Source of the DNA: Bryum argenteum
Taxonomy: Eukaryota > Streptophyta > Bryopsida > Bryales > Bryaceae
Length of the DNA stretch: 64,000 nucleotides
NCBI GenBank assembly: GCA_037043015.1
Contig: CM073330.1
Span: 10,248,512 to 10,312,511, forward strand
Reading direction: 5' to 3'
Below, one piece after another: positions 1 to 60,699 of this stretch (positions within the stretch are counted from its first letter, which is position 1; every line of letters starts with the position of its first letter). Under the pieces are notes generated by a model, which worked only from the letters and a program-made list of their open reading frames with translations, made no database searches and had not been told where the DNA came from. Position numbers and translations under genes: made by a program.

Positions 1-1204
1 CCCATAGTATACTCTTTACAATCACAAGCAACATTGCCCTAACTTAGAAGGCTATCAATTGGCCAGTTTAAATAGTTAAATGTTAAAAAATTCAAGATGC
101 ATAATAGTTCTATAATATAGTCATAAGAAGCAATTATTACGCTCTTGTTAAATGATCAGTGTTAAAAAAAGTATGTTGCTTTGCATTTCCAATATTTCAA
201 GCCTTAAGGTAACCTTACTTCCCCATTTTTCAACATTTAAACATTTATCATTTTAATTAGAAAAACCTTGATATTCAAATTTTCCACAATATTGTAAGAC
301 TTCATCATACATTATCATGTGCGATGATTGAGGCTATTGTTCTGCATAAGAAAGAAAACTTCATTACTAATATATCTAGAAGTGAATACTTTAAATGTCT
401 TCATATATCAAATAACTTTAAAAATCAAAAGTTGAACCTAAAGAGAACCTTGCTTGGTTACATATATTTTGAATATGTAAAGTACTCAAAGAAGGAAAAA
501 CAATATTACATCATCACATTTATCCTTTGCATTTCTCACATGTGTTATTCATTGCATAGTTTTCTAAATCTATATATAAATACGGAGGTGGTATATAATT
601 CACAAAACATTGTCCACACATATATTTTTAAGAAGTACACTACAAGAATATGTAATGATCAAAAATCTAAAAAGTGAGTACCAAACCAGTTACTAGTCTT
701 AAAAATTTATTCCGATTTTTTTTTGTAATTCCAATTTTGATAAAACAACACATTCTTAATATTAAGTAAAAAAATCTCAAATCTAGAAATTTTACGGAAG
801 AGTATAAGTCAACATCAATAAAAATAACATTGTATATCTGTATATCACCAGTAGGAAGTGATGTTAAAATTAATGAATTGATTTGTCTCTAGTGGCGTAG
901 TGTGTTCATTTTAGTTGTGCTTTTAATGACATCAAAATAAATCAAAAATATCATTTTTTTCACTTTTTGATGAATTTTTATCAATCTAGTAAGCTATAGT
1001 ATTACCTATTACACCTACAAATATCCAAGGAAAGTGAGAAAGTAGATCATTCTCATATTTTCAAAAGCATCATCAAAACAAGCAGTCTCCGTTACTAGAA
1101 GGAAGTCACTACAAACGTCATTAGTGTCATTTTCTACATTTTCTACTAGAGTATGTTCAAGAAAAATATAAGGTAGCCTCCTCAAAATGAAAAAGCATCA
1201 GAAA

Positions 1205-1440
1205 TGGCTCACTAGGGTGAACTTTGCACAAGATACTTAATAGTTTAAAAGGTGGATGTATGATGTACTCATAGTGACCATTCTAGATTGCGCCAGTTTA
1301 GGAACACCTATAAGGTCAACTTCAAAAATTCATACCAAATTTTGAAAGAGTTCAAAGATAATGATTCTAGTAGGTCCATGCACAAAAGTTGCTCACCTGG
1401 AGAACTTCACCTCAAAATTGCATGTTCATATTGAACCATC
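1205..1440 (+). repeat. dispersed repeat, left copy flanking RSPH10B
   Basis: Shares ordered words with 8750-8990 and more weakly with 11100-11230 (a GAACTTTGCA word, then GATGTACTC, then TTCTAGATTG, then GATTC(C)AGTAGGTC). All copies have the same orientation, so the RSPH10B gene lies between direct repeats. Type unknown; probably an old transposon fragment. Confidence 0.5.
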
Positions 1441-1950
1441 ATCAGACATGTCACCTTATTGATCACAAAGTTAGTCAATGGTTGTAAAAAGCATCAGAAG
1501 AAAATGTGTAAATAAGCTCAATAATTGGTAAGTACTTTGTTCGTCATACAAATTTATGAATCACTGCTGCAAAGCACCACCGACTTGAATTACACAAAAA
1601 ATGAACACAAGCAACCTAAAGACAAAAACTTTTAGATCTTAGCTATAAATTGAGTTAGGGTTGCTCGTAGCAATACACTAAAATCACAATTAACTTTTTT
1701 GAGAGCGTAATAGATACTTCAATTCGATGATTAAATCCTTTTAGGGTAGAGCTATAAGAACATGGCCACTCGTTAACTAAAACAAGCTCAAGACGCAATA
1801 GTGACAGGTGTGGCTTTTAGGAAGAGGGCCATCATTCTGTCATGAAACGGAAGTGAGCTTCTCAGCTTGCTCAAATCAACCGCCGCCCATTGTCTTCGCG
1901 TTCAAGATAAAGTTCTCTTTCTCCAAGTGACAACACTACTTGCCACAGAA

Positions 1951-2046
1951 GAAGGCGGAATTGCGACATTGGTTTGTCCCTAGACGAAGGGGGAGAGAAG
2001 AAGGCGGAATCGCGACAATGCTTAGTCTCCAGACGAAGGGGGAAGT
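1951..2046. repeat. two-copy tandem repeat, 49 bp unit
   Basis: The unit beginning GAAGGCGGAATTGCGACA at 1951 is repeated at 2000 with a few substitutions; both copies end in AGACGAAGGGGG. It is GC-richer than its surroundings and explains the open frame on the minus strand. Confidence 0.75.
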
Positions 2047-2532
2047 AGGGTGAATACATGCGATTCGGGGGAACATGCATAAGAGAACTTACAAATTGTG
2101 TGGGTGAGTGGGGCTTTCGTAGACTTAAAGGCTCCAACTCCCAAATGTGCACGGAATTTGTCTTATCCAATGTAAAAATCTTGTTCAATGGTAGCCAATG
2201 CCTTAATAAAATATTGTAGTGAAAGTATTTTTATTGAGGATGAAGACATTGAGACAAATGTATGTGGAAAAAACAAATTAGCATTTAGGGTTTATAATTT
2301 GTGAATCCTATATAACTCGAAGGTTTTTAACTCATATCCTTGTAAATCTCAAATTCATATTCAACAATAAATGAGACTATACATTGCAATGTATCATGAT
2401 TTATTTTTCAAAAGACATATGAGCTAAGCTCATTTCACATAGTTATGTATCATGTGATTGTATCACCAAGGATCTCTTGGATATTTTTTTTATATCACAT
2501 TCAAGTATAAGCCTAAACTTTTTTTTATCAAG

Positions 2533-5500
2533 ATGTCGATACGGAAGTCCACACGTCAAAGTGCTAATGTTGAAGGTGGATCAAAAAGAGGCACCGCATT
2601 GGTACGAACAAGTTTATTAGACTCAACACAAGTGTACGAGAAAGAAAAACAAACATATAAGTCATTCACGGGGCATGCGAATATTTTAGAACTTTTGAAT
2701 GTATATGAGCTCTTGAAAAATTCAACCGTTTCACCCGCTATTATTAGTGGATGGATGTGGCATTCATGGCGAGGGGAAGTAAGCGAACAAGGTTTTCCAG
2801 AAGGAGAAGGACGAGCATATTTTGGAGAAAATACCTATTACATTGGTATGCACATTACCTTTGTGCACTATTGGTATTCTATCCTGTAGGTATATCATCA
2901 AGAGTAGGTTGAATAAATATTTTATTTACACCAACCTCAATAGAAGCATGGTATTCTTTGTCTTGATGCACATTATAATTATGCAATAAGATTATACTCA
3001 GTAAACAAGTCTTTCATATAAATTGTCTCCAATTCGTTGGTTGATCTAGGAGGATTTAAACATGGTCTTCTTCATGGAAAAGGGTTATTAAAGTGGGATG
3101 ATGACAAAGGAAAACATCTCTCATTTGAAGGCAACTTTTTCTACAATTGTTTACATGAAAAAGGAGATTACAATTGGGATGGTCAAGGTGCTTATGACGG
3201 AAAGGTAATTCCTCAACCCTACCATAATTCTAAGCATTAGGTATCTTTAGATGCTTGAAACATCTTCTAAACATCATACATCAATAATTTGAATATCGTG
3301 TAGATCCTTGATGGGTTTCCGGACAAAAATGGTGTTATGCAAGAAGGCAAACGAGGACATATATATGATGGAAAGTATGTATATGGTTTGAGAGAAGGAT
3401 TGGTAATTTTTTCATACCCACAATTGTTAAATCTATCTTAGGCTCTCTTTACTTTTCATTGATACGTTTTAAGCCTACATATGTTATAGCTAGATAATGT
3501 TCCAAAGTTGAGATGAGCTATAATTGAAATTGAGCTCTCTAGTGATAGACAATGTATAATTTGTACACTTGTATATACTTCTTTTGATAATATGAAACCA
3601 TTAAAAAGAAAAAATCACATCTTGTGAATCGTAAATTAGTTCTTCTACACTACGAAACACTTGGTAGGTATATCATTGATAGAAATTCTAGAATTTACAG
3701 GTATTCATATACATATATAATCATATCTTAAGTTAATTTCACCAATTCAATCTCATGTAGGGGAAAATGGTTTACAAAGATGGAGAAGACATCCCTAACT
3801 ATGTTGGTGATTGGGTGAAAGACGAAAAACATGGGCAAGGAAGATACATATTTAAATCGGCAACTTATGAAGGTGAATGGGTACATGGGAAGACTGGTGG
3901 ACACGGAATCCAAACTCAATTGATGAACAGAGGTTTTCCAAATCCATTGCGTCCACTTATATTTGCGGCTACCGTTTACGATGGCATTTGGCTTAACGGT
4001 CTTCCACATGGAAGGTATTGTATGCATTAACATATTTGTATGAATATATAAGTGTTGATCTACACGTAGTTGCTTCATTGTCATTGAATTTATTTATAAT
4101 AGGTTAAAGTATTTGAAATATCAGCATTTAGGCTTATAATAACAAAAGTACAATTTAGAATATTTAAAGTTTGATTTTAACATTTTATGATGTTACTAGA
4201 GGCAAACAAATATGGACGTGGGATCATAATAAAGAAACCCTCAATCTTTTACACAATGCATATGTTGGTGATTTTGAATATGGAATGAGGTCAAATAGAG
4301 GCACATTCTATTACGCAAGTGGTGCAATTTATCAAGTAGGTTTTCAGTCAAGATAATCTAACCTTAGACTTCTTGGAGAAAAAATTAGATAGAAATGCAT
4401 ATGATTGTAGATGATTGGAGGATTACAAAGGACTTCCATTCTCTTGTGAACATAAAAGAAAATATCTAAAATTTAACTTCTTGTATGCACATAATCATGC
4501 ATTGATATGTCAATCACCACATGTTTATGTCAAATGAGCATATACCAACTAACATCTAAATTGTATTAGATGCATAGGGATTTTGGAAAAACAACTACAA
4601 AGATGGACATGGTTTATATACATATGACGATGGAAGAATGAACAAAGTACTTTGTACTGCAGACCGTTTTAAATTTCACGACGATAGAAGTATAATGCTT
4701 CATCTCAAACATGTGAGTGTTTTTAATGAGACAAAGAGAGGGTTGACATTTTTACATATTAAATATACATAGTATATTTGTTCATTCATTGCAAAAAACT
4801 TACGCACGTAGTTTTTAATAAAATTACATAAGTTACAATATGTTTATGATAATGTATATTTTAGATGAAGTAATGTCTTATTTCACATACCTTGCATATA
4901 GGCATTGGATAATGTCATAGAAGAAGATATTGATATCGATAGTTTGAAGTTGAAATTGATATATTTGACACTTAGATTCACAAATGCATTTCGGCTTGCA
5001 TTTCATGATTACAGGTTAGTAAAGGACACATTCCTACAAATGTTTGAGTAAATATTGCATATCATTTATGTGTGTATACTATGTCTTGTAAATCTCAAAG
5101 TTCTAATAGGACTGTATTCTTATTGCTTTTTAGATCTAGAATTGAATTATTGTGGTTTTCTATATTCAACTAGATTTGCAACAAATTAAATTTGAAGTAA
5201 ATTATTAGATAAGATTTACATTTTCTTAACATCATAAAAACGTGATAGCTGGTTAGAAATTAACCCGATGGGATCCAAGCACTTATATATCATGATAAAA
5301 CGCCTTGAAAGAGTTGTTGTAAAAAGTGTCCATGTTCCATTAGAACTTATAGAGGGATCCATCATAACTTGTGTTTAAACTCTTAAGGATCCAAGAGGAA
5401 TCATAATTAATTTGATTCTTAAAACTTCAAGAGTAGACCAAATTTGCTAGGAAACATCCTTTTGATTTATAGACCCTTTATATCAAATTTAGAGATATCT

Positions 5501-8270
5501 ATATAATACGTGAAAAACTATTTCACAATATTTTGACTAAATTTAAAAATTCCATACTACTACTACCTAATACTAATATATAGAGACATACTTACGCAAT
5601 TTCACACTTGAGTTCCATAGACATGAAAGCTAAAGTACTTATTGAGTTTGTATACAGTGCCTACTCTACGTATGCTAGTAAGTTTGATTCTACACTCGAA
5701 AAGAAAAAGTTTGAATTAACTGTAGAAGATATCAAAACTGATGATGAGCTTGCAGCACCTGATGGCATAGAAGAACTACCACCTTCACCCCCACCACCTA
5801 CGGAAGAACCTCCACAAGAACCTCAACTAGATGCTGACGGTAATCCAATTCCAATTGTTGAAGAGCCTAAGGTGGATCAATCGGCTGTTCTTCTAAAAGC
5901 TGCACTAAAAAAATATCGTTTGTCAAAAACTGCCTCTGCTAATTTTAGCATTACACAAGACTTCAAAGATGAAGTCTCAAAGAGCTACTTGAAAATGATA
6001 GTGAAGTATGTTCGCGGTAGAGAAAGAAAAGATACATTATTTGGTGATGCATTGGGTGGTCTTGATAACAATTTATACCATATTCACAAGAATTTACGAT
6101 TGGAAGGACAAGCTTATGCTATGACTGTAGATAACTTTTGGCGCCTGTGTTATGATGCTCATGTAAAAACATTGTATATCTATAAGAGTGTAAAAATAGT
6201 GTAAATTTATAATTTATAATCTTGCACTATCAGTAAAATATCAAAAACCTATATCATGTATCTTATTAATTTCTTGCATTCTCTTGCATTTTTATTTCTT
6301 TATCTTATATTTTATTTATTATAATATACTATAGAAAGTTTAGTAAAATAGTGTAGAAATGTCAACTTCCATATGATACACTTGAACTGCAGATAGTAGA
6401 ACCTGGTCTTGGATTAGCTCAAATAGATACTATCATATATCCATCATCAAATTCTTGGGATGATTCATTTGATTTTTATAGTCCGGTAAGTTTATTATCA
6501 TATTATAGAGTTGTACAACTGAAAGAAAGTTGCATCCAGACATATTATTTGCATAACTACATATAATGATAGTTATTTGGTATGGGATTTGGAAAGCTGT
6601 AATGATTTTAAAATATGGTCAATCATTACAATATAGTAGTGAAATCACAATACTTGGACATTAGAAGCGACAACTGATTCATCGAGAGGTGATTGAGAAT
6701 CTAGTGAAAATTGGCTTGTGCAAATATTTTGGGTATGGAATGCAAGTTGACATGAAGGTAATAAACTTATGAAAACTCAAATTTCCTTCTATTATCTTTC
6801 AATCTTCAACATGTAAGTGAAATATGATAACTGAAATATATATTATTGCAAGTAACTCATAATGTGTTTATTATATTGACAATCCTTGTGTTAATAGTTA
6901 CAAGATTTTTTTACACATTGCTTCAATAAAATTGAAAATAAAGATGAAGGATCAACTTATAAATTTTTGATGGAACAACCAACACAAGAAGTTCTTCTCC
7001 ACTTTGAGCCCCAGTTTAGAATATTATTTGCAAAGTTTCTATTGAGGTGTAAATCAAATATGTTTCATATAAGATTAGAATATATTGTGCATTTCTTTCA
7101 GGTTACAATTCTTTCTTATCAAGAATTTCAATGAACCTATTATGTTTTACAATTTGAAAATAAAGTGGTAATTTTTATATCAATATATGATTCTTGAATG
7201 AAATGCTCTATTAATTTTTATATCATATTTTGAAACATATATACGAATGTTGTATAGTACAAATTCTATAAGAATGGAACAATTAAAGACTATATTCTAC
7301 TAACAAAGGTATCAAATTTTAAATTACAGCATATATTGTATGAGGAAGTTATTCCGGAAAGTGATCCAAGTCATATTCCTCCACCTCCTCCACCTCCACC
7401 AGATGATTCCCTCGATGCTCCTCCTTCAATTGAAGTGCCTAAAAACAATCCTTTCCAAGATTCAATATTAAGCGTTGTTTCACAAACTTTGTATCAAGCA
7501 GAGTACATAAACAAGGATCCTAGCATATACTTAGAGCTTGATATAAACTTCAAAGAGTTTGAACTACTTTTGGTCAAATTTGCAATGCTTGTAAGTATAT
7601 CTACTTCCACAAAAAATCATATATCTACAATATCCATGTCATGGTGCTCAAAATATTCTATTAGTCTTCAAACACTCGTTTCATCGAAATACAAAGATCT
7701 CATACATCGTCTTGCTCCTACAATAAATAACATTCATACAAGACATACAAATAATTAAATTGAAGTACTATTTATTACAAAAGTTTGTAATCCGCTACAA
7801 AGAGTTCATTCTTGTTTGAGAGCATTATAAGCTTAATACGCTACATTCAAAAACTTTCACACATTACCTCACCCAATTTATCAAATGGCAACCCTTCTTA
7901 TATCAAGACTATTTAGCATTCTTTTTTCTAAAAAAATGTAGAAATCTACAAAGTCTCTCTCTTTTGTACTAGTCCCTTAACATAACAAATTCTTGAACAA
8001 TTTTTTCAAATCACCTCTATGGGATCATGGTTAGAAAAAAGTGCTTTGTTTTAAGACTAACAAATTGTTTTTTTTTTTTTTACTTTTGTCTAGAGATTTG
8101 CTCCTTATAAGCAACTTGGTGAGGATGATGGCAATCACATGAAGGAACATGTTCAAATGGTACAACACTTTATGAATGAGATATCAAAACTAAGTCCTCT
8201 ACCTCCCATACCCGATGATGAAGAAGAAACAATTGGGGAGGAAGAATTAGAAGAAGAACCTGAAAGTTGA
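2533..8270 (+). CDS. RSPH10B: Radial spoke head 10 homolog B (MORN-repeat flagellar protein)
   Basis: Fourteen exons join in frame: 2533-2845, 3050-3204, 3304-3402, 3761-4014, 4200-4335, 4578-4712, 4902-5014, 5613-6162, 6393-6485, 6665-6757, 6898-7101, 7258-7308, 7330-7590, 8094-8270. They encode 877 aa, matching the roughly 870 aa of animal RSPH10B. Residues about 75-365 carry MORN repeats (for example YEGEWVHGK, YQGFWKNNYKDGHGLYTY, YVGDWVKDEKHGQGRYIF). A proline-rich acidic linker lies near 458-475, a second proline run follows VIPESDPSH, and the tail is acidic. In ciliates and animals the family belongs to the axonemal radial spoke, so the expected site of action is the sperm flagellum. 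The start chosen is the first ATG in the frame after an upstream T tract (MSIRKSTRQ). The exon ending at 7101 uses the donor CAG/GTTACA; the alternative 55-bp intron 7047-7101 breaks the downstream frame. Codon use is AT-rich. Confidence 0.88.
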
Positions 8271-8749: not shown

Positions 8750-8990
8750 AGGCAAGTGTGAACTTTGCAATAGGAACATAGAGCTGATATTTGATGTACT
8801 CTCTAGGAATATTTTCTAGATTGTGCGAGTTTAGAATCACCTACAAGTCCAACTTCAAGATCTCTTTATCTATTTATTTTCGAATTGGTCCAGTTATAAT
8901 GATTCCAGTAGGTCGAAGCTTCTACTTACTTTGCCCACACACACAAATTTGCTCGCATGGCTGATTTCACAATGTTCAAATTTGCGTCTT
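8750..8990 (+). repeat. dispersed repeat, right copy flanking RSPH10B
   Basis: Counterpart of 1205-1440 in the same orientation; its right part merges into the tandem duplication that begins near 8917. Confidence 0.5.
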
Positions 8991-9239
8991 TAGTGTACAA
9001 AATTACCTTCTTGCATCTTAATAAAGGTTTGGTATAGATAAAATTAGTGACATGAAAATGACATAAGGTATGTCATACTAATTGTAAAAAATCTAAGTTA
9101 CACAAAAATGCTTGATCGGGATCCAATATTCTACTTACTTTGCCCACGTACACAAATTGCTTGCATGGTTAATTTCACTATTGCTTTACTATGATCAAAT
9201 TTGCGTCTTTCGTGAGCACATTACCTTCTTTCATCTTAA

Positions 9240-10183
9240 CCCTTAAACGTTTAGCTATATGGTTTGGGGCAGCCCAAAATTGGATCACAACATCTTTTGG
9301 ACTTCGGCATCATGAATAGTGCACTTTTTGAACTTGGGCATCATGAATGATCCAATCAATGATGAGCTTGCAACCTCCTACAAGGCTATGTACAACCCCG
9401 ACCTACCTACCACAATCCTTTCAAAGCACAAAATCACTCATATAAATTGTGATTTGAATTGTAAAATTTCACTTTTTGAATGCATCACAAGAAGGTGACC
9501 AGTTTGACATCAAAATATAAGTGAAAAGTTGAGTACATTGAGTGCTATAGAGAAGATTCTGTTGGAAACGGCCCCCTCGGGGCCGCTCAGACGTTTAACC
9601 CCTAAAGATCCTTGGGTGTTTTTGGGAGCTTAAAACCTCAAAACTCCAATTCTCTACCTCTATGCACTTCAAGGGGTGCGAAACAATTTTTTTATTCTTT
9701 TCTTAACTTCCAACCGTAAGATCTTGTACCTAAGCCAATTTTCAATATCTGATATAAAAATTGACCGTTGGATGTTTACCATTTGAGAGATTATAACATC
9801 CAAAGTTTGTCTACGAAGTTTTTTTGGGCATTGTTGAGATTATTTTTGACACTTTTGGAGGCTGCCCTTGTAAAATTGGTACACTTTTTGACTTGGGGCC
9901 CTTTGGAACTTAAGTAGTGATTTGGTCATGAACATATTTCCAAAAAAAAATTTCAAAAAAATACTAAATTTAAACTGCCCCACTTCGGCTCGCAAACCAA
10001 GAATTGTTGTAGAAGACTCAAAAATTGGAATTTGGCTTTGTAAATTTTACCACATACACTTTGCAGTATAGGGAGCACCCATTAAAAAATTTAGGCAAAA
10101 ATATTACTTTTAACCTATTCATCTAAGCTGCCCAAAATAGCAAAAGCCCGATTTGGTCCTCTTGGATCTTTAGGGGTTAAGGG
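9240..10183 (+). mobile_element. TTAA-flanked MITE, family A copy 1 (interrupted)
   Basis: The element starts CCCTTAAACGT and ends ...ACGTTTAA/GGG once the nested insertion 9599-10180 is removed, leaving about 362 bp. Both sides have TTAA (9236-9239 and 10184-10187), and the empty site at 9018-9021 has a single TTAA. No coding capacity. A perfect GC-rich hairpin (CGGCCCC/GGGGCCG) lies just inside the right end at about 9569-9585. TTAA duplication with CCC ends is the signature of piggyBac-type elements; with no transposase visible, the superfamily assignment is inferred. Confidence 0.85.
9599..10176 (+). mobile_element. TTAA-flanked MITE, family B copy 1, nested in family A
   Basis: The 578 bp element has perfect 13-bp terminal inverted repeats, CCCCTAAAGATCC at 9599 and GGATCTTTAGGGG ending at 10176. 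TTAA is duplicated at 9595-9598 and 10177-10180. It is inserted in the TTAA that forms part of the right terminal repeat of the host family A element. Related copies lie at 54013-54584 and, truncated, near 63440-63922. No reading frame of note. Confidence 0.9.
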
Positions 10184-10290
10184 TTAATAAAGGTTAGTAT
10201 GGATGGAATCCGTGACAAGGAATTGATATACGGTAGGTCATACTAATTCTAAGTCACACTAAAATGGTTTACCGGGATCCAATATGCAAA

Positions 10291-28195: not shown

Positions 28196-28199
28196 TTAA

Positions 28200-29051
28200 C
28201 CCTTAAACAAGCCAAATGTTGAAAATCAACATTTTGGATGACAAGCAATAACTTTAAAGAGCCATATCTTCTTCATCCGGAGTTTGTTATGGATAACTAG
28301 TATGATACTTGTCGTCCTGACAAGAAAGGTCTTTACATGGTACTTTTGAAAAAGTATCCTGTGTCTACCATTTCCTCAAACGGTTTTTTTTTCTCCCTTT
28401 TTTTTTCTCTTTATTCATATTTTTTTAATACATAAAAGAAGGTAGGTAGGTTGGTAAGTTCGTAGGTTGGTAGGTTGGTACATTGGTGGGCAGGAAGGAT
28501 TGCTGAACAGTATTTTATTATAGAAGTAGATTTACTTGCTTTGAGTCCAAAATCAAGTCTAGTTTGTATAAAAAAAGTTGCAGTCTCATCCAAGAAAGTA
28601 TGAATTTATGGCAAAGCAGGTAGCTCTTGTTTTAGGGTTTCAAAAATGGGGCATGTTTTATCATGCAAGCCAATTATGCAAAATCCAATTTAGTTTTTTC
28701 TTGAATTCTTTTGCATAAGTATGATCTCAAGATGAAATTTAACATCTGTGTGGTTGGAATATTATTGTTTGAATAGTTGAGGTATTGGATATGCAATGAT
28801 GTTTCTATTTCAAGAGAATTAAAAAGAATACATGATTTTTGAAGAGAAGTTTCTCATTTATCCACCAATGGATTTCAATTTTGTTTGTTGGGTTGGATTT
28901 GGATCTAGTTTTGCAATAGAAACCTCAATTTTATCCAAGGTGTGAGGAAGTTATGGCATTCATTTTCGTGCAAGGTGCCTAGTTTTGGACATTTTTCCCT
29001 TTGTAAAATTTCAAGCCGTTTTCACCATTGTAAGGCCATAATTTTTCTCAT

Positions 29052-29099
<48 letters not shown>

Positions 29100-29412
29100 T
29101 TCAAGAATGTCATCAAGATGAAGTTAAACATCTTCATAGTTGGTGATATTTTTCATTGCAATAATTCTAACGGTAGCATTTCTAGTTAAAGTAGAAATGT
29201 TCAGATTTTGTGACGTTCTTTGAGTACTAATACGTTATGATCTGGCAATTTACAGGGCCTCATGACTCAAAATTTGACCGACATGATTTACAATATGTCT
29301 ACTACAGCATTGCCCGGTTGAGATCTAAATAACTTATCTTTGTTTTCATTTATGACACTTTTCAAAAAAATGTTTTTTTTTTTGGTCACAAATGGGTCAA
29401 ACCATTTAGGGG
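28200..29412 (+). mobile_element. TTAA-flanked element, family C copy 1
   Basis: About 1.2 kb starting CCCTTAAACAAGCC and ending CCATTTAGGGG, with TTAA at 28196-28199 and 29413-29416. It aligns end to end with 43515-44710, and its two ends match those of the inverted, shorter copy 30680-31286. A subterminal hairpin ATGTTGA/TCAACAT lies 15 bp inside the left end. It contains a Helitron-like insertion near 28297-28522 and a 46-base poly-T run at 29053-29098. No transposase frame. Confidence 0.8.
28297..28522 (-). mobile_element. Helitron-like insertion inside family C
   Basis: Absent from the corresponding point of the related copies. Read on the minus strand, its low-coordinate end is hairpin CTTGTC/GACAAG, a short AT spacer, then CTAG followed by T, as at Helitron 3' termini. 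It shares its body (TTTACATGGTACTTTT, CTACCATTTCCTCAAA, ACAGTATTTT) with 46419-46680. The other end is not precisely placed. Confidence 0.5.
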
Positions 29413-29416
29413 TTAA

Positions 29417-30675
29417 TATCGATGCAAAAAGTTCCATTTTGTCCTACACCTTAGTAGCAAATTTATCTAATGTACTAGTTTTATAGAGCATCATCTAACA
29501 TTATTGCAAATAATACATAGTTGATTTTATGACATTTTACAAGTTGATAAAAAAAAGTGCATAAAAAAATACCGTAGAGGTGTTTGGTTCTGACAAAACA
29601 TCTTCTAGTTCCTTGTCTTCTCATTGGCTTACTCATTCTCTCATATTTTGGAGGCTGTTCTTACACTAATTGTTTTCTTTTTATGTGCAAACTATCAATA
29701 TTGAAGACAAAACAAGGATGTTCGTAAAGACCAACTGCAATATAGGCAATCAAAGTGTAAAGATGGTTACTGAGAGAAAAGCTTAGCAACAACAAATGAT
29801 TATGGAAGTAAGGCTAAATTGGTCATCTTTCATTGCTTTAGAAGGTTAGTACAACATTACTTGCAACAAATTTATCAAAGTGAACACAAATTAAAAAGAT
29901 GTTGCACTCATATAAAACGTCTATAAGGGCTAAATTTTCTAAAAATTGGTCAAGGACCCTATGAGTGTGCGTATGAGCTATTTTTAAGAGCTCACTTTTC
30001 ATTGTACATGAGTGCAAAAAAGACAATGGCTTAAACTTACATTATTAACCTTCATCGCTAAGTAAAACATGCAAAATATAACTTCAGTGGTCCACTAAAA
30101 GTCATAAGTGTCAACCTTCAAAACAGTCTACTAGTACATATAAAGTACATAGTTTATCTAGTCATTCAATAATATTTTGATGCCCCTCAGGGGTAAAATA
30201 TAGTTCATGATACCACCTTGTCAAAAAAAAAAAAAAAACTCCAAAAATATAGTGTCTCCATTGCTATATATATAAACCTTCATGTATTTGATGACATCAA
30301 AGGTTCTTTTTTCAACTTGAAGTATGATTTTGATTCAAATTGGTATACATTGTTCCTAAGACAAATGCATGTGCAATATTAAATGTCAAAAAGAAGGTTT
30401 CAAAAGCACCTTCACTTTCAAAAGCACACAATTGTATTGTATGTGAATCCCCAAATTAATCTCTGATGTAGATTGTAATTAATTACATTCAAATAATGTA
30501 AACTTGATTTTAAGTTCAGAATCTTGAAGTTTCATTTCTCATATGGCACCAACAACGATCTATATGATTCTTTTTGAATATTCAATTGTTTTATATTCAA
30601 GGTAAATTCATAATATTCTCTAAAACTATATATTAATTCAACGTTACAGTAATTTACGTATGATACTTAGACAAG
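29417..30675. other. spacer between the two inverted family C elements
   Basis: AT-rich with no recognised gene; a poly-A run lies near 30222. A 62-aa minus-strand frame at 29838-30026 is unsupported. Confidence 0.5.
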
Positions 30676-30679
30676 TTAA

Positions 30680-31286
30680 CCCCTAAATGGTTTGACTCAT
30701 TTGTAGTAAAATGAACACATCCTCAAAAGCATTGTCATAGGTGGAGGTAAAAGTGTGTTATCCAAATCTCAACCGTACAATCTTGTCGTAGACATATTGA
30801 ACATCATGTGGGTCAAATTTTGAGTCATGAGGCTTCATAGATTGCGAGATCATAATGTATTAATACTCAAAAATGATCACATAATTTCATCATTTTCACT
30901 TTAAAGTGAAAATGCTACCATTAGACTTATTGCAATGAAAAAGTCACCAATTAGAATGTTGTTCACCTTCATCTCAGTAGCATCCTTGAACAAAAAAAAA
31001 CCATGAGAAAAATTTCTTTGTGCAAATAATGGCCCTGCAATGGTGAAAACTGCCCTAAATTTTACAAAGGAAAAAATGTCTAAAACTAGGCTGCTGTCAC
31101 TGAAATGCATGCCATTAATTCATACTTCATTGTATGGGTCTGAGATTTTTATGACATGAACTAGACTTGATTTGGGACCCAACCCAAGTGATTTCGTCCA
31201 AAACGGAGTCCGGATGAAGAAGTTATGGCTCTCCAAAGTTTCTGTCATCCAAAATGTCGTTTTTCGACATTCGGCCCGCTTAAGGG
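30680..31286 (-). mobile_element. TTAA-flanked element, family C copy 2 (internally deleted, inverted)
   Basis: Reads CCCCTAAATGG at 30680 and CCGCTTAAGGG ending at 31286, with TTAA at 30676-30679 and 31287-31290. Its minus strand corresponds to both ends of 28200-29412 with the middle missing. The subterminal hairpin here is TGTCG/CGACA, differing from copy 1 in both arms. Confidence 0.8.
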
Positions 31287-31290
31287 TTAA

Positions 31291-38509: not shown

Positions 38510-40233
38510 TAACGGTTCTAATGTAAATTACCTATGGCTTCTCGTCTCTCAATCTCAAGTAGTTCACGTCTTCTACCCTGCCATTAATTTCAAACATGTC
38601 AATAGTCAACATTCATTTACACATTAGTTATCATCTCGTAAATACGATGAAAATTTATTTGGAACTTTAAATAGAATTTTGACTTGATTATTGGTGCAAA
38701 ATTGAATATATTTTAAAGACATATCAAGCTTTTAAAATAACAATTTGAATAATTTAGGTTTTGGTTTTAAAACTGATGTTTAAAAGTATCTATGTTTTTG
38801 AGCACTTTGTTGCAAAGTAATGAAATCCTAAATATGTTGTGCAATACAACTTATTATATTGTCTGAAACAATTTTATTGCTGGACAATTTCTGTGAACTA
38901 ACAAAAGAAGTTTATGTATTTGTAGAGTATTCTGAGAGTCTCATTCATGATTCATACATTTATAATTTTGATACGATATTCATACCTCTCGGGTATTTGT
39001 TCTTTGACCATTAGAATCATAGATTGGCGGAGGTGATGGTGAGCGAGGGCCATCAGTGTCAAGATCCAAAAAACCCGAGTCCAATTGAGCAGCAATTTGC
39101 TCCGCTCGAGTCTGCTCAAAAGTCGTCCCACCAATAACAGGCATCTATATCACTAAAGGCCTTCACCTGGATATGAGCATTATAGTGTTTTCCTTCTTAG
39201 GTGGATAAACACCACATTTTTCATATATAAATGCATCTTGCGTTCACATATCATTGTAAATCACATAATATCATATGTTAATGTTAGATATGATTTAGGT
39301 ATTTTTTTCATAATAAAAGCAAAGACTTGTTAAAAAAATTGTATGTTATTTATAACAAAATTTTGAGTAAAAGTCTGCAAGAAGTAACTTGGGTCAGAAG
39401 TGAAAAAATGATCAATATATCTATACATATAGAAACTCGACTCTTTTTTAGTTTTCAATAATCATTGGTACAAACATCACCTATACTAAGAGTTTCATCC
39501 TAAAAAATCATGACCACCACTTTGATATTTAAAGGCTTCAATTTCATTGTTAGAGTTTGCAACAACTTACTTGCAACGCAAGAGCCAAGCCTCGTTTGAC
39601 AACAGGATCATCTCGCGGATCAGGGCCCCATTTACTCTTTCGTTTAGGTTTTTGCTCGACACCTTCCTCTTTAAATGTAGTATTAGAATTTACTTTTGGT
39701 GCGACGTTTTGATTAACTGGAACAAGGGATCCAAATAACTTATTCTTTGGTATAACAAAATTTGGTTTTCCATTCAATATAGTAGATGATTTTGTAAACA
39801 CTCCATTATTCTTTGACATAGCATTTGTTGGTGCATGTGCTGCCACAAGTGCTGCAGCAGTTTTTTGTGCTGTAGCTGCCGCAACGGCAACATTAAGCTC
39901 AAATGAAGACATTTTTGAGTCTAAAGAAACAACATTATCTTCGGTCTTTGGAACTTCATCATCTATGCACATTGGAACTTCTTCGTCTTTGGTCATTGGA
40001 ACTTCTTCAGCTTTGGTTGCTCGAACTTCTTCGTCTTTGGTCACCGGAACTTCCTTGTCTTTGATCATTGGAACTTCCTCATCTTTGGTCATTGAAACTT
40101 CCGCGTTTTTGGTCATTGGAACTTCCTCACCTTCGGTCATCAAAACTTCCTCATCTTTGGTCATCACAACTTCCTCCTCTTTGGTCATTAGAACTTCCTC
40201 ATCTTTGGTCATTAGAACTTCTTCATTAACCAT
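33432..40233 (-). CDS. SF1: Splicing factor 1 / branch-point-binding protein
   Basis: Twelve exons on the minus strand join in frame: 40233-39571, 39144-38986, 38577-38532, 38252-38170, 38023-37946, 37612-37559, 37374-37237, 36464-36410, 35802-35702, 35398-35318, 34893-34782, 34615-33432. They encode 917 aa. SF1 binds the intron branch point and U2AF65 in the early spliceosome. Residues 4-99 are twelve octapeptide repeats. [10 protein letters not shown] (W202) is the U2AF-ligand motif, and [20 protein letters not shown] is the conserved SPSP linker. A KH domain follows with [18 protein letters not shown] (326-343) and [13 protein letters not shown]. Two CCHC zinc knuckles lie at 435-448 ([14 protein letters not shown]) and 462-475 ([14 protein letters not shown]), then a long Pro/Gln/Asn-rich tail ending [12 protein letters not shown], like the end of plant SF1. 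The RRM that follows the knuckles in Arabidopsis SF1 is absent. Codon use is AT-rich. Confidence 0.92.
37181..37202. repeat. (AT)n microsatellite in an SF1 intron
   Basis: Eleven AT dinucleotides, in the intron between the exons at 37237 and 36464. Confidence 0.9.
38462..38507. repeat. (AT)n microsatellite in an SF1 intron
   Basis: About 23 AT dinucleotides, between the SF1 exons at 38532 and 38252. Confidence 0.9.
39937..40224 (-). repeat. 24-bp tandem repeat coding for an SF1 octapeptide array
   Basis: Twelve in-frame units of eight residues (consensus EEVPMTKD; variants [32 protein letters not shown]) form residues 4-99 of SF1. Every unit keeps the frame. The array is acidic and regular, and unlike the N-terminus of known SF1 proteins. 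Confidence 0.9.
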
Positions 40234-41205
40234 TTACAAAAAACTCTTAATGCAATAGTGATCCTAATTTGGTATGAAGCACTCAAATATCTACTTTCTT
40301 AGACCTAAATTTGAGAAATATTCAATCAAATGCACGAAGACGTATATTATGATGCAATGTTTGACAAAAGAGTAAGTAAAACTATCAATCTAATGAAGCT
40401 AAGAAATAAAAAGTGTCGTCTAAAGTTTGTGACCAAATGCATCAACTTCAAGTCATACAATAAGTGTAAGCCCAAGAATTCAACTAAAAAATGTAAGTAG
40501 GGCGATAAACAACAAAGTGTAGGGTTTGGTTGTGGGATACTTAGATATCGATTTTTTGATTCTTTAATTGCACTTTGTGCACATGTGACGGTTATAGAAT
40601 CTGTGTCTTAAAAAGAGATTAGGAGCTTTCAATGTTTCCGGATTTTATTGAACCAGAATCATTTATCATTATATTTATTAATATTGGATCTAAAAAGTTG
40701 ATTCATTTATACTAATTCTTGATTGAGCATCACATTAAGCCGGCATTTTTATGTGATGATAATTCCATTCAATTTTGTAGACCCATTTTATTTTATTTTA
40801 AAATTTCTAGTATACAAGAGTTGTTACGAGGAGATTAGTGTTATGGGTAACATTTGGTAAAAAACACTATCTCTTAACTCTCTTAGGATTAGAGTTCATT
40901 TTGGGGTGCATTTCAACAGATGTCCCTTGTGTTTTCTTCAAGCCACCAATTCCACCACTTCCAAAGTATTCTTCCACTTGCAAGAATGTGTGCATGTTCT
41001 CACATTTAGTGTTATGGTTTGACGATTAGTGTTGTAACACTATAATGATGTGTGACATTTAGTGTTACAGTTCGCAATTAACGTTTGTAACACTAGTCAA
41101 CAACTATTGTTAACGACTATTGTTTCTCTTTAATGATGATTTCATTCAATTTTGTAAATATTGAATATTTTTTAGAAGTCCTATATATAATTATTTTTTG
41201 ATTTA
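40234..41205. other. SF1 5' flank
   Basis: AT-rich upstream region of SF1. It contains repeated words around GTGTTA(C/T) and AACACTA at 40830-41110 without a clear unit. No gene seen. Confidence 0.45.
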
Positions 41206-45328: not shown

Positions 45329-45332
45329 TTAA

Positions 45333-46056
45333 CCCTTAAAGGCGCCTGTCAGCCCCTCGGGCTGTTTTCCAACAGAATCTTGCTTGTAGCTCCTTCGATT
45401 CTCAATTTTTCACTTATTTTTTAATATCATTCTGGTCACCTTTTTGTGATGCATCTACAAAGTGAAATTCTACAATTCAAATCGCAATTTGTATGAGTGA
45501 TTTGTGCTTGGAAAGGATTGTGGTAGGTAGGTTGGGGTTGTACATAACCTTGTAGGAGGTTGCAAGCTCATCATTGATTGGTCTATTCATGATGCCCAAG
45601 TTCAAAAAGTGCACTATTCATGTTGCCAAAGTCCAAAAGATGCTGGAATCCAATTTCGGGCTGCACATTGAGGAGTAGAAGAACCTTTAACCTTTAAACG
45701 CCCATGGGGTCTGAAACGGGCAACCCAAAATTGGATCACAACATCTTTTGGACTTGGGCATCATGAATAGTGCACTTTTTGAACTTGGGCATCATGAATA
45801 GACCAATCAATGATGAGCTTGCAACCTCCTACAAGGTTATGTACAACCCCAACCTACCTACCACAATCCTTTCAAAGGACAAAATCATTCATACAAATTG
45901 TGATTTGAATTGTGAAATTTCACTTTTTGAATGCATGAGAAGGTGACCAGTTTGACATCAAAATATAAGTGAAATGTTGAGTACAGAGAGAGCTACATGG
46001 AAGATTCTATTGGAATCATGCCCCTCGGGCTTGCTTGGGCGTTTAAGGGTTAAGGG
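45333..46056 (-). mobile_element. TTAA-flanked MITE, family A copy 2 (interrupted)
   Basis: Starts CCCTTAAAGGCGCC after TTAA (45329-45332). With the nested copy removed it ends ACCTTTAAGGG before TTAA (46057-46060), giving about 361 bp. The body is family A in reverse orientation. A subterminal hairpin CAGCCC/GGGCTG lies near 45350. Confidence 0.8.
45691..46049 (+). mobile_element. TTAA-flanked MITE, family A copy 3, nested in copy 2
   Basis: 359 bp starting CCTTTAAACGCCCATGGGG and ending TTGGGCGTTTAAGGG, with TTAA at 45687-45690 and 46050-46053. It is inserted at the TTAA in the terminal repeat of copy 2, so the right junction reads GGGTTAAGGGTTAA. It matches 9240-9598 closely in the same orientation. 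Copies 2 and 3 together form a 0.7 kb foldback. Confidence 0.85.
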
Positions 46057-46150
46057 TTAAGCTTTCTAGTTTTAGGCCTTTGAAACATAATTCTGTAGAT
46101 CCAAACATAGGATCCTTATATTAACTGCATTTATTAATCAAATTTTTATA

Positions 46151-51292: not shown

Positions 51293-52672
51293 GAGTGACG
51301 AGACTTTTCCATCAATGCTAGCTAGCCTAGTACCATTCTTGTACACTGAAATGACTCTGCTCCGCTATCTATAACCAACATACAGCCACTCGCCACTCGA
51401 CTTGTAGGTAGTTTTTGTAACATATGGCGAGATGAACATACACTCTTTTTTTACGTTACGCAGCAGAGATTGAAGTGTGAAAACAGTTGCTTGAAATATC
51501 CACTCCTCTGGCGGCCGGAGGACCTGCTTCCTTGCTAGCTAGCTAGCAGCTACTTACTAACCTTCTTCCTTTAGATTGGAGAAGACGAAGAACTCTTTAC
51601 TTTGACTTTCTTTCTACAGGCTTTACTTAGTCTTCCGAGATTTTGCGCTTTCCTCCAGCAGGCTGAGGAGAACATTAGGCATCTCATCATCAATGGTCGT
51701 TTTCATCTTTTGAATTTCAAAAACTGACATGATTTCTGACCAATATGACTGTTCGTGTAGCTTTGGGTTTGCGTTATATATCAAATCGACTGAAGCTGTT
51801 GTTGTGCTTGGAGTACTCTGTCAGAAGTTAAGGCTAACAAGGGAGATCGTGATTCTTTGCTAAATAGAAATAAGAGAGGTTCTGTCAATGTCGAAACATT
51901 GCAGTTGTGGAAGTGACCAGTTTTTCTCAAGGAAAGTAGTATAATGAATATTTTCAACTGTCGGTGCTTTATATGTAAGATTCGATCTATTTTAGGTTCC
52001 AAGTATCAAAAGAGACTTGGCTTCAACTTGAATGAGTCTTTTGGGGAAGAATCCATGCAAACGAGGGAAAGTCCAATTGCATGGCCCAAGAAGGAAAGGA
52101 ATTTGATTCTCTAATTTTTTTGAAGTGTGAATAGAGGGTTGTATAGGAGCAGCGTAAGAGGTTGGTAGTCACACAGATGGTGATATGACATGTGCGCATA
52201 TAATAAGGAGAAGCCAAACAAATACTCTATTTACACTATCTTTGTGTTAGTAGTACTTGTTTTCTGTGGGGACTCTTCTTCCTTTTAATTTCCATAAACG
52301 GAAAGAAATCCTCGGTGAACTAGAGGTTCTATGGGAAGTTTGTCACTTCTTACACTGAACACTTAGGGGTCAGGTCACCGCCATTGTCACCCAATGCAAT
52401 AATCATTTCTGACAAGCTCTGAAGTTTGGGTTGCTACTATTTACCCCTCTCCCCCATCTGTATTTCCACCCACACTTGCTCAATGTACGTTTTTGCATGC
52501 CATCTAGTTGTGCTTGTATTTACACCATTAACTGCATAATTATGTAAGAGTTTAGTTTTGTTGAATAACTGTTCATACATTAACTTCTTGTTTGTGATTG
52601 ATTGAAATTTTGGTTCAACCGGCTGTAGATATGGGTTTCACTTAATTGTGTTTAAGGAATACATCTCCTTAA
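51293..52672. other. 3' UTR of the PHD/SAP30 gene and spacer
   Basis: Mixed composition to about 51700, then AT-rich. CTAGCTAGCTAGCTAG near 51534 is a small simple palindrome. Minus-strand frames at 51781-52217 have no recognised motif. Confidence 0.5.
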
Positions 52673-52889
52673 CCCTTAAGCGTCAAATTGGGTTTTTTTT
52701 GAGAGAATCTTGCTCATAACTTACACTCCATTATACCAAATGGAATTTTTAGAATTCCAAACTAAGCACCTTAAAGAGATCTATACTTTCTTAGAATAGA
52801 GCTCAAGCAAATTAAAAATAGAATAATGCTAAAAATGGAGTTCAAAAGAGATTTTGGGTGGTATCAGGAAAGCATATGACGTTTAAGGG
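52673..52889. mobile_element. TTAA-flanked MITE, family D
   Basis: 217 bp with ends CCCTTAAGCGTCA and TGACGTTTAAGGG (one mismatch) and TTAA on both sides (52669-52672, 52890-52893). Smallest complete member of the TTAA group here. No hairpin as clear as in families A and C. Confidence 0.88.
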
Positions 52890-52893
52890 TTAA

Positions 52894-54008: not shown

Positions 54009-54012
54009 TTAA

Positions 54013-54584
54013 CCCCTAAATCTTCATGGTGTTTTTTGGGAGTTTTTTGTTGCGATTTTATACCTCTAAGCACTCGTGGGGGTGTGAATCAATTTCTTTT
54101 CCTTTTTTAAAACTTCCAACCGTTAGATCTTGTACCTAAGAATATGCTTGATTACGTTAAAAAAATTGACCTTTGGATGTTTACCATTTGATAAATCATA
54201 ACATCCAAAGTTTGTCTCCCAAGTTTTTTTTGGGAATTGCAAAGATTGTTTTTGAAAATTTTGGAGGCTGCCCTTGTAAAACTGGTGAACTTTTTGATTT
54301 GAGTCACTTTGAAATTTGAGTAGTGATTTAGTAATGAACATGTTTTAAAAAAAAAAGATATCAAAAAAGTTACTTTTTTAAGCTACCTTATCTCGGCTTG
54401 CAACCCAAGGATCGTCCTAGAAGACTCAAAAATTGGAGTTTGGCTTTGCAGATTTTACCACATACACTTTGCAGTGTAAGGAGGACCCAATAAAAATCTT
54501 AGGCAAAAATATTACTTCTAACCCCTTCATCTAGGTTGCCCCGAATTGCAAAAACCCATTTCAAGCTTCAAGATGAGTTAGGGG
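54013..54584 (+). mobile_element. TTAA-flanked MITE, family B copy 2
   Basis: 572 bp from CCCCTAAATCTTC to GAGTTAGGGG with TTAA at 54009-54012 and 54585-54588. It aligns along its length with 9599-10176 (CTTCCAACCGT(A/T)AGATCTTG, GGATGTTTACCATTTGA, ACATCCAAAGTTTGTCT, TTTTACCACATACACTTTGC). Confidence 0.85.
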
Positions 54585-54588
54585 TTAA

Positions 54589-59172: not shown

Positions 59173-60339
59173 AAAATGATTTTTTTGCATTAATCTCAAT
59201 GTTTTTTCTAGAATTGATATCCAACATTATTGTAGGTATAAAGAATTGTTGCATTGTAATCTACGAATTTCCTCTAAACATTGTTTTTGATGTTTTTGGA
59301 AGTTAGTTTTAAAGCATTAAGTCATGAACCACAAAATATGATGTAGACACTATATATCTATACTTCGGGAATCAGATAGATATTCTTAGAATCTTCGGGA
59401 ATCTTTGAAAACAACTAAATCAAGGCTTATTAAAGTTCTGGTTTATCGAGATAATAATAATAATTAGAAAAAGAAAAAGGTAACAATAAGGAGTACTCAA
59501 ATTAAAGAGTAATAATTTTTGAACTCATTAGTATAGTACATAAACTAGCTTGAAGAAAACTGATAAAGATTATAAATTCAAATAAATTCATATGGAGAAA
59601 TAATAATGTGAGTACTTGGCGTATGATACTCCTTACCAGAAATTGATGTTGCTTAAGAACTGGTACTATATTTCAATACACCAGAAAGAGCATAGTTATA
59701 AGACAGTGTTAAAATATTAAAGGCTCTTGAACGAGCTGAAAGACATACTAGGCTTTAGAGGCTCCTCCAATAAAAATTCCATTTATGACTCTTTGATGGC
59801 TTAGCACTTTAGATAATAACACCACTTGAATTACATAATTGCACCAACTATTCACTACTTCAATTTTAGTGGCTATTGTTCAAACAATCTTTTAGTGGAG
59901 GTTGAATAAAAAAAAAACTCTAATGTGGATAATTTACAAATTCTATAAGTCATTGAACATCTAATCGGCCAATAGCCTATGTAAATCCAATAGCAATATG
60001 TATATTGACTAAAATTTTTGAATCCCATTGCTTATTTCCATTATTATATTTTATTTATTGGCCCTTTAGAATTTGGTCTCAAAAAAAGTGGGAATTACAA
60101 AAATGTCTTGATTTAAAAAATGGGAAAATCACATAAAGATCTCAAGGAACTCTACATTGCACATAAAGAAGTTAGACAACAGTTGATGAAAAGGTAGAGA
60201 AAATAGATAACTCTAAAAGTAAATGTAAAAGAAGCTATACAATATCCACTTCTTTGATAAAGAGTAAAAAGAGGAGAGTGCCCTAAAGTAGGAAAGGGTT
60301 GAGGATGGAAATAGGGTCGAAGACAAAGACAATCTTGAG
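57717..60339. other. AT-rich spacer with (TA)n
   Basis: No gene seen. A (TA)n run lies at 59100-59169. CATTGATCATAAAATTCA is duplicated around 58030-58075. Confidence 0.5.
59100..59169. repeat. (TA)35 microsatellite
   Basis: Uninterrupted TA dinucleotides for about 70 bases; the longest AT run in the window. Confidence 0.95.
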
Positions 60340-60545
60340 CAAGTACGGAGACATGATTGAGAGTAGGAACGGAGACATGAATGAGAGTAGGAACGGAGAC
60401 ATGAATGAGAGTAGGAACGGAGACATGAATGAGAGTAGGAACGGAGACATGAATGAGAGTAGGAACGGAGACATGAATGAGAGTAGGAACGGAGACATGA
60501 ATGAGAGTAGGAACGGAGACATGAACTAGAGTAGAAACGGAGATA
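60340..60545 (+). repeat. 24-bp minisatellite, about eight units
   Basis: The unit GGAACGGAGACATGAATGAG + AGTA repeats without gaps from about 60366 to 60533, with diverged units at each end. The 24-bp period leaves frames open on both strands (MNESRNGD on plus, FLLSFMSP on minus). These frames end at the array edges and in the poly-T tract, so a protein is not proposed. Confidence 0.92.
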
Positions 60546-60699
60546 AAAATGGGGAAACGGGGACGTGAACGAGGACACGGAATGACATGGAGATAGAGGT
60601 GAGGAGGAGGACAAGAACAAGTATGGGGATAGAATGAGCATGGGAATTATACGAGCATGCAAATAAGACACAACACAAAGACGACGGCAAGCATGGGTT

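Follow-up and report, generated by a model that had tools for sequence, protein, structure and literature searches.

We consider a window of 64,000 nucleotides (the whole stretch of moss DNA that was analysed, C10:10248512-10312511 of a 259 Mb assembly with 25 contigs, which is also the genome searched below), where the two units of a tandem duplication present the same target site once empty and once filled. The block that fills the site is, very probably, a pair of nested non-autonomous MITEs of the piggyBac superfamily, A and B, moved by transposases made elsewhere, with B arriving later and inserting into A. The features of the site are collected in Table 1.

An empty site beside two nested elements

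When the insert is removed from unit 2 and the two units are aligned pairwise, 169 of 220 columns are identical, and the alignment score of 207 lies far above the maximum of 32 reached in 300 shuffles; the duplication, and with it the comparison between an empty and a filled site, is therefore real. The site in unit 1 reads CATC-TTAA-TAAAGG with a single TTAA, and in unit 2 the same words are parted, CATC-TTAA standing 5' of the insert and TTAA-TAAAGG standing 3' of it. The inserted block amounts to 944 bp plus one extra TTAA. An empty site with one TTAA next to a filled copy is what the initial annotation had described, and both the sequence and the unit alignment agree with it.

Table 1. Features of the duplicated target site and of its insert (window coordinates)
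Feature	Position	Strand	Details and basis
Tandem duplication, unit 1 (without insert)	8920..9129	.	alignment to unit 2
Empty target TTAA in unit 1	9018..9021	.	sequence
Unit 2, pre-insertion part, last bases TTAA	9130..9239	.	sequence and unit alignment
Element A, left TTAA copy	9236..9239	.	sequence
MITE A, main part	9240..9598	+	left TIR CCCTTAAACGT 9240-9250; right TIR start ACGTTTAA 9591-9598; sequence and genomic copies
Element B, left TTAA copy (the TTAA within A's right TIR)	9595..9598	.	sequence and window TIR scan
MITE B, 578 bp	9599..10176	+	TIRs CCCCTAAAGATCC 9599-9611 and GGATCTTTAGGGG 10164-10176; 13/13 inverted match; 321 genomic end matches
Element B, right TTAA copy	10177..10180	.	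sequence and window TIR scan
MITE A, terminal GGG, split off by B	10181..10183	+	sequence; un-nested A copies
Element A, right TTAA copy	10184..10187	.	sequence
Unit 2, post-insertion part	10188..10287	.	unit alignment

The excision of piggyBac restores TTAA seamlessly, as a passage of PMC7351741 has it, so that a former insertion leaves no mark, and a unit 1 that was never occupied cannot be told by its sequence from one that was perfectly healed. It could thus be that unit 1 once held A and lost it tracelessly after the duplication. We consider this unlikely; nothing in the sequence demands it, and a site that was never occupied is simpler.

The block had been taken for one element with its ends fixed to the base. 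Its outer ends stand, but the closing GGG does not close a single element: these three bases are the last of A, cut off by B, and two elements from different families lie nested between the words of unit 2. B inserted at a TTAA that A's right terminal repeat ACGTTTAAGGG contains. Subtraction of B and one TTAA gives A a native length of 362 bp. Elsewhere in the genome, un-nested A copies of about 361 bp run from CCCTTAAACGTC to GACGTTTAAGGG with an intact right end (GACGTTTAAGGG-TTAA), and this proves the nested reading. A single 944-bp element from CCCTTAAACG to GGG would fit both outer ends and the empty site, and nothing in principle prevents a composite from moving as a unit. Such an element is nonetheless very improbable, as A and B each occur apart from the other at many loci, flanked by TTAA copies of their own, and the join between them falls exactly on the TTAA of A's terminal repeat.

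Both nested elements start with CCC and end with GGG (A with CCCTTAAACGT, B with CCCCTAAAGATCC), the YY termini of piggyBac. They are also MITEs by their properties, being short, present in many copies, lacking a transposase gene of their own and having ends in common with transposase-coding families; the open reading frame list of the window has no frame of 140 aa or longer within 9240-10183. A scan of the window for inverted CC... ends bounded by TTAA yields 13 pairs at 445 TTAA sites (overlapping combinations included), and the same scan with control tetramers gives 0 pairs for ATAT (684 sites), 1 for TATA (575) and 2 for AATT (703). Such pairs at TTAA are more frequent than expected by chance.

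Several further elements of this kind lie in the window. An A-like cluster at 45329-46060 is made of arms that are inverted copies of each other (45501-45669 and 45715-45883, 93%), and its right end is GGGTTAAGGGTTAA, the same as at the nested site. A B-like element at 54009-54588 (572 bp) resembles B at about 80%, and at 52669-52893 there is an element of 217 bp with CCCTTAA ends and TTAA on both sides. There is also a TTAA-bounded stretch of 3.1 kb at 28196-31290 with imperfect CCCTTAA... ends (TIR score 8 in 20 bases) and several long inverted arms, e.g., 29179-29382/30708-30911; it is possibly a larger, non-autonomous, foldback-like relative. The window also carries an NPH3 gene and two 24-bp tandem arrays (39904-40239 and 60289-60576), the first of them within open frames on both strands.

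Genome-wide copies and the four-base duplication

The ends of A match the assembly 463 times and those of B 321 times (at most 3 mismatches), with no match for either reversed control. Our sample of A consists of 27 loci, L002-L008 together with L042-L061, the latter being 20 out of 27 listed exact matches to a search pattern that holds no TTAA. Both ends are recognised in 20 of the 27, and a search for the second end finds none in the other seven. TTAA stands on both flanks in 17 of the 20 two-ended copies; the other three are one base off on one side (GTAA/TTAA, TTAA/TTTA and TTAA/ATAA). As to B, TTAA precedes the left end in 95 of the 100 matches listed from the total of 321, found with a search pattern that, through its first letter, is biased against G at the fifth base out.

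For a closer look at the B flanks, 20 copies were fetched, namely the five with an odd left flank and the first 15 with TTAA on the left, and both ends are found in 19 of them. Among the 14 two-ended copies that had been chosen for TTAA on the left, 13 read TTAA/TTAA and one TTAA/TTAT. In three of the five odd copies the left and right flanks share one odd tetramer (TTAT/TTAT, TTAG/TTAG and ATAA/ATAA), and the remaining two read TTGA/TTAA. The repeated odd tetramers argue for a duplication of four bases upon insertion. The annotated TTAA duplication is upheld in this way, with the TTAA flanks that were to be expected genome-wide, and flanks of another kind are not seen in these copies, since the cases other than TTAA are one base away from it.

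These off-target insertions are decisive because a TTAA target gives the same letters under two models. A Tc1/mariner-like element with ends ACCC...GGGT that duplicates TA, and has a taste for T-TA-A targets, would mimic a TTAA duplication; the two models are identical on a TTAA target, and the single site of the window cannot separate them. To account for TTAT, TTAG and ATAA on both sides of B, however, the TA model needs a mutation in the element that agrees with the host base in every one of these cases. Long elements of A and B end type (described below) also code for the piggyBac transposase domain PF13843 instead of a Tc1/mariner enzyme, in all seven proteins scanned against Pfam, one of which (from L030) has an additional PF01609 match below its cut-off. 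We have dropped the Tc1/mariner reading, which is extremely improbable with odd tetramers duplicated on both sides. The off-target copies (L063, L065 and L066 for TTAT, TTAG and ATAA) form, in addition, a small natural record of loose target reading by the transposase.

Exact matches to the 14-mer TTAACCCTTAAACG number 5,945 across the assembly, compared with 4 for its reversed control, where the count is one of ends and an element can match at both. The terminal repeat CCCTTAA bears a TTAA target of its own. A flank that lies at the end or TIR of another element was counted by hand in 15 of 200 listed matches, of which 11 belong to the 100 for A and 4 to the 100 for B. Under the same rule the window has 26 such cases at 890 TTAA contexts, and 20 transposase loci have 54 at 883; against this background a preference for nesting into other elements is not claimed.

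Transposases, their ends and their probable MITE partners

We turn to the genes. From 776 first-look candidates, at least 116 matches to PF13843 (piggyBac transposase) were listed and scored, all of them over the cut-off, with a best value of 7.4e-82, and none of 14 control genomes is positive. Free of stops are 93 of the 116 listed. The best 20 of the 116 (L022-L041, 8 kb each) serve as the sample of long elements. Matched CCC/GGG inverted repeats at TTAA enclose the transposase in 14 of these 20 loci, by a search that took in TTAA-flanked ends only and so cannot itself show a preference for TTAA. In the other six a matched TTAA-flanked pair is absent, with one end in L026 and L039 and none in L024, L028, L034 and L036. 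From end to end the long moss elements measure about 4.5 to 6.5 kb.

Ends of type A stand on both sides of L022, L023, L031 and L037. In L022 (522-5471) and L023 (529-5727) these are CCCTTAAACGCCC on either side, and the pairwise alignment of the two loci stops at the same boundaries; for this reason 522-5471 was taken for L022, whose best-scoring pair is wider (522-7846). Ends of type B are found in L025, L027, L032, L033, L035, L038, L040 and L041, L027 and L035 having CCCCTAAAGATCC itself at either end. Two more kinds of ends are seen, CCCCTCAAGGCCCATG at both ends of L029 and CCCCAAAG at both ends of L030. A candidate that did not hold is TTAACCCCAAATTCC... as the ends of L009, L010 and L013, where the TTAA is internal and pairwise alignments gave the real ends.

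The proteins resemble known piggyBac transposases of animals. For the protein of L010 (A-type), the match to the structure of T. ni piggyBac (6x67) has an E value of 1e-29 and that to piggyBat (9c0f) one of 2.1e-24; the protein of L027 (B-type) matches the same two at 1.4e-28 and 3.8e-28. The catalytic triad of T. ni piggyBac is given as D268, D346 and D447 in the portion of PMC7351741 that deals with it, and in the printed alignment to 6x67 all three are aligned to D in L010. A D-D-D triad lies within one open frame in 17 of the 20 loci and fails in L028, L034 and L041. The superfamily, which the initial annotation had deduced from TTAA and CCC/GGG, is thus borne out by the enzymes found between such ends: long elements that encode a DDD-type piggyBac transposase exist for A-type as well as B-type ends, and another transposase class does not appear at cut-off among the long-element reading frames checked.

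This also bears on other superfamilies with a taste for TTAA. The target duplication of Sola3 is TTAA. Kolobok likewise duplicates TTAA (a passage of PMC9587614). Kolobok termini, however, are 5'-RR...YY-3' in the same passage and go with a different transposase class, whereas the ends here are CCC...GGG, and the transposases enclosed by A-type and B-type ends are similar to T. ni piggyBac and carry PF13843 matches, which speaks against Kolobok and Sola3 both. Kolobok was rejected on its termini, and either superfamily is a highly unlikely source of these elements.

With piggyBac as the preferred assignment, the end types can be compared with the phylogeny of the enzymes. In a transposase tree of 19 of the 20 loci (L028, too short, was left out; L026 and L039 were labelled from one end), the five A-type rows fall together (100/100), and so do the nine B-type rows (100/99). 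The end type therefore tracks the transposase clade, and ends and enzyme are inherited together.

The link between the MITEs and the long elements was examined in the first 120 bp of each MITE side with the terminal 16 bases excluded, against 200 shuffles. The subterminal sequence of B matches B-type long elements at both ends, best of all L038 (z 26.2 on the right and 12.4 on the left); the best 12 rows are all B-type, and none of the 200 shuffles reaches the score. This makes for a strong partner link by sequence likeness: B is related to the B-type elements and has been shortened internally. For A, two A-type loci score best (L022 and L023, z 5.0 to 7.2), where z 7.2 is reached by 1 of 200 shuffles and z 5.2 by none, and some B-type rows follow at z of about 3. 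The likeness of A to long elements beyond the terminal repeat amounts to a modest link, and A derives most likely from an A-type lineage; its exact autonomous partner was not found among the 20 transposase loci.

Some features of the long elements and their proteins stand apart from these comparisons. The open frames of L029, L030 and L027 reach 867 to 1187 aa, of which 368 to 715 putative residues are N-terminal of PF13843 with no Pfam family covering them. TTAA makes up 0.70% of the positions of the window and 0.27% of those in the L022-L041 loci; the long elements are situated in TTAA-poor DNA or are themselves poor in TTAA.

Order of events and relation to known systems

Combining the target site, the copies and the transposases, a course of events can be proposed. 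Having no transposase of their own, A and B would have to be moved by enzymes made elsewhere. A transposase of this kind would recognise the ends of A, excise A from its donor site and join it to the TTAA of unit 2, leaving TTAA on both sides. Later B, belonging to another piggyBac family with its own ends and transposase clade, would insert by the same chemistry, its target being the TTAA that happens to lie in A's right terminal repeat. If the moss enzymes act like that of T. ni, for which passages of PMC7351741 describe excision through a TTAA hairpin and footprint-free repair of the donor, then excision would proceed via the hairpin, insertion would occur at TTAA and the donor TTAA would be healed seamlessly here as well.

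The divergence of the copies gives the same order. Median identity is 98.4% for B (range 84.2-99.7, n=14) and 94.2% for A (range 89.0-97.8, n=20), in samples selected by well-kept ends and hence biased to young copies; with B inside A and the B copies more alike, the spread of B came later. It may be that the moss harbours a large native piggyBac population in which at least four transposase lineages differ in their ends and have a MITE swarm apiece, a population so recent that 93 of the 116 listed transposase matches are stop-free and B copies are about 98% alike; some of it might still be moving. We put this forward tentatively, as a possibility somewhat short of an even chance. If some elements do still move, the moss would hold a native plant piggyBac system.

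The closest known systems are those of animals. T. ni piggyBac (IFP2; 6x67) is alike in its TTAA target and duplication, its CCC/GGG ends and its DDD transposase; it is unlike the moss elements in its low sequence identity, its other TIR sequences and its length (2472 bp for IFP2, compared with the moss elements several kilobases long), and the moss host is a plant. The piggyBat of bats is an animal element with different ends, yet the alignment of its protein with that of L010 spans residues 72-541 of 543 and takes in the cysteine-rich tail at the C-terminus, as seen in this one protein. The MITEs of animal piggyBac elements, e.g., those of coral genomes (PMC2872659), are short and non-coding and have TTAA duplications like A and B, but differ in sequence and in the kingdom of the host.

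That piggyBac is rarely described in land plants, as had been presumed, holds in part. Passages in several papers state piggyBac-like elements for plants in general (PMC10140906, PMC8086355, PMC10813416, PMC10794571), a survey excerpt counts PiggyBac among the superfamilies present in all groups studied (PMC4438587), and a fern repeat table labels 1,230 pieces PiggyBac (part of PMC6890710). Given these papers, a land plant with elements of the superfamily is in itself no novelty. On the other side, work on piggyBac centres almost entirely on animals, and plants receive it as an imported tool (an excerpt of PMC10905368); in a moss genome paper (PMC10619864) the word occurs twice, at least once as part of 'piggybacking'. 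A description of moss piggyBac families was not found in our literature search, whose scope left out most subscription journals. What we add are these families, their nested MITEs and their scale in this moss. The result is solid, and extends a known superfamily without adding a new kind of element. With thousands of ends and many unbroken transposase domains, the way in which piggyBac spread in land plants becomes testable, as do the silencing of piggyBac by plants, the separation of families through their ends and the use of plant-native transposases as seamless tools.

As a side observation from the same genome, SAM_LFY matches were found at five loci (L017-L021, on C5, C9, C9, C10 and C3, respectively), one strong with 106.9 bits and four weak with 31-45 bits, the two on C9 being 5 kb apart. 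LFY is a land-plant family, and its best match here marks the host as most likely a moss. The DNA-binding domain of this match scores 244.8 bits to 4bhk, which we take to be the Physcomitrella LEAFY structure, and the next 173.5.
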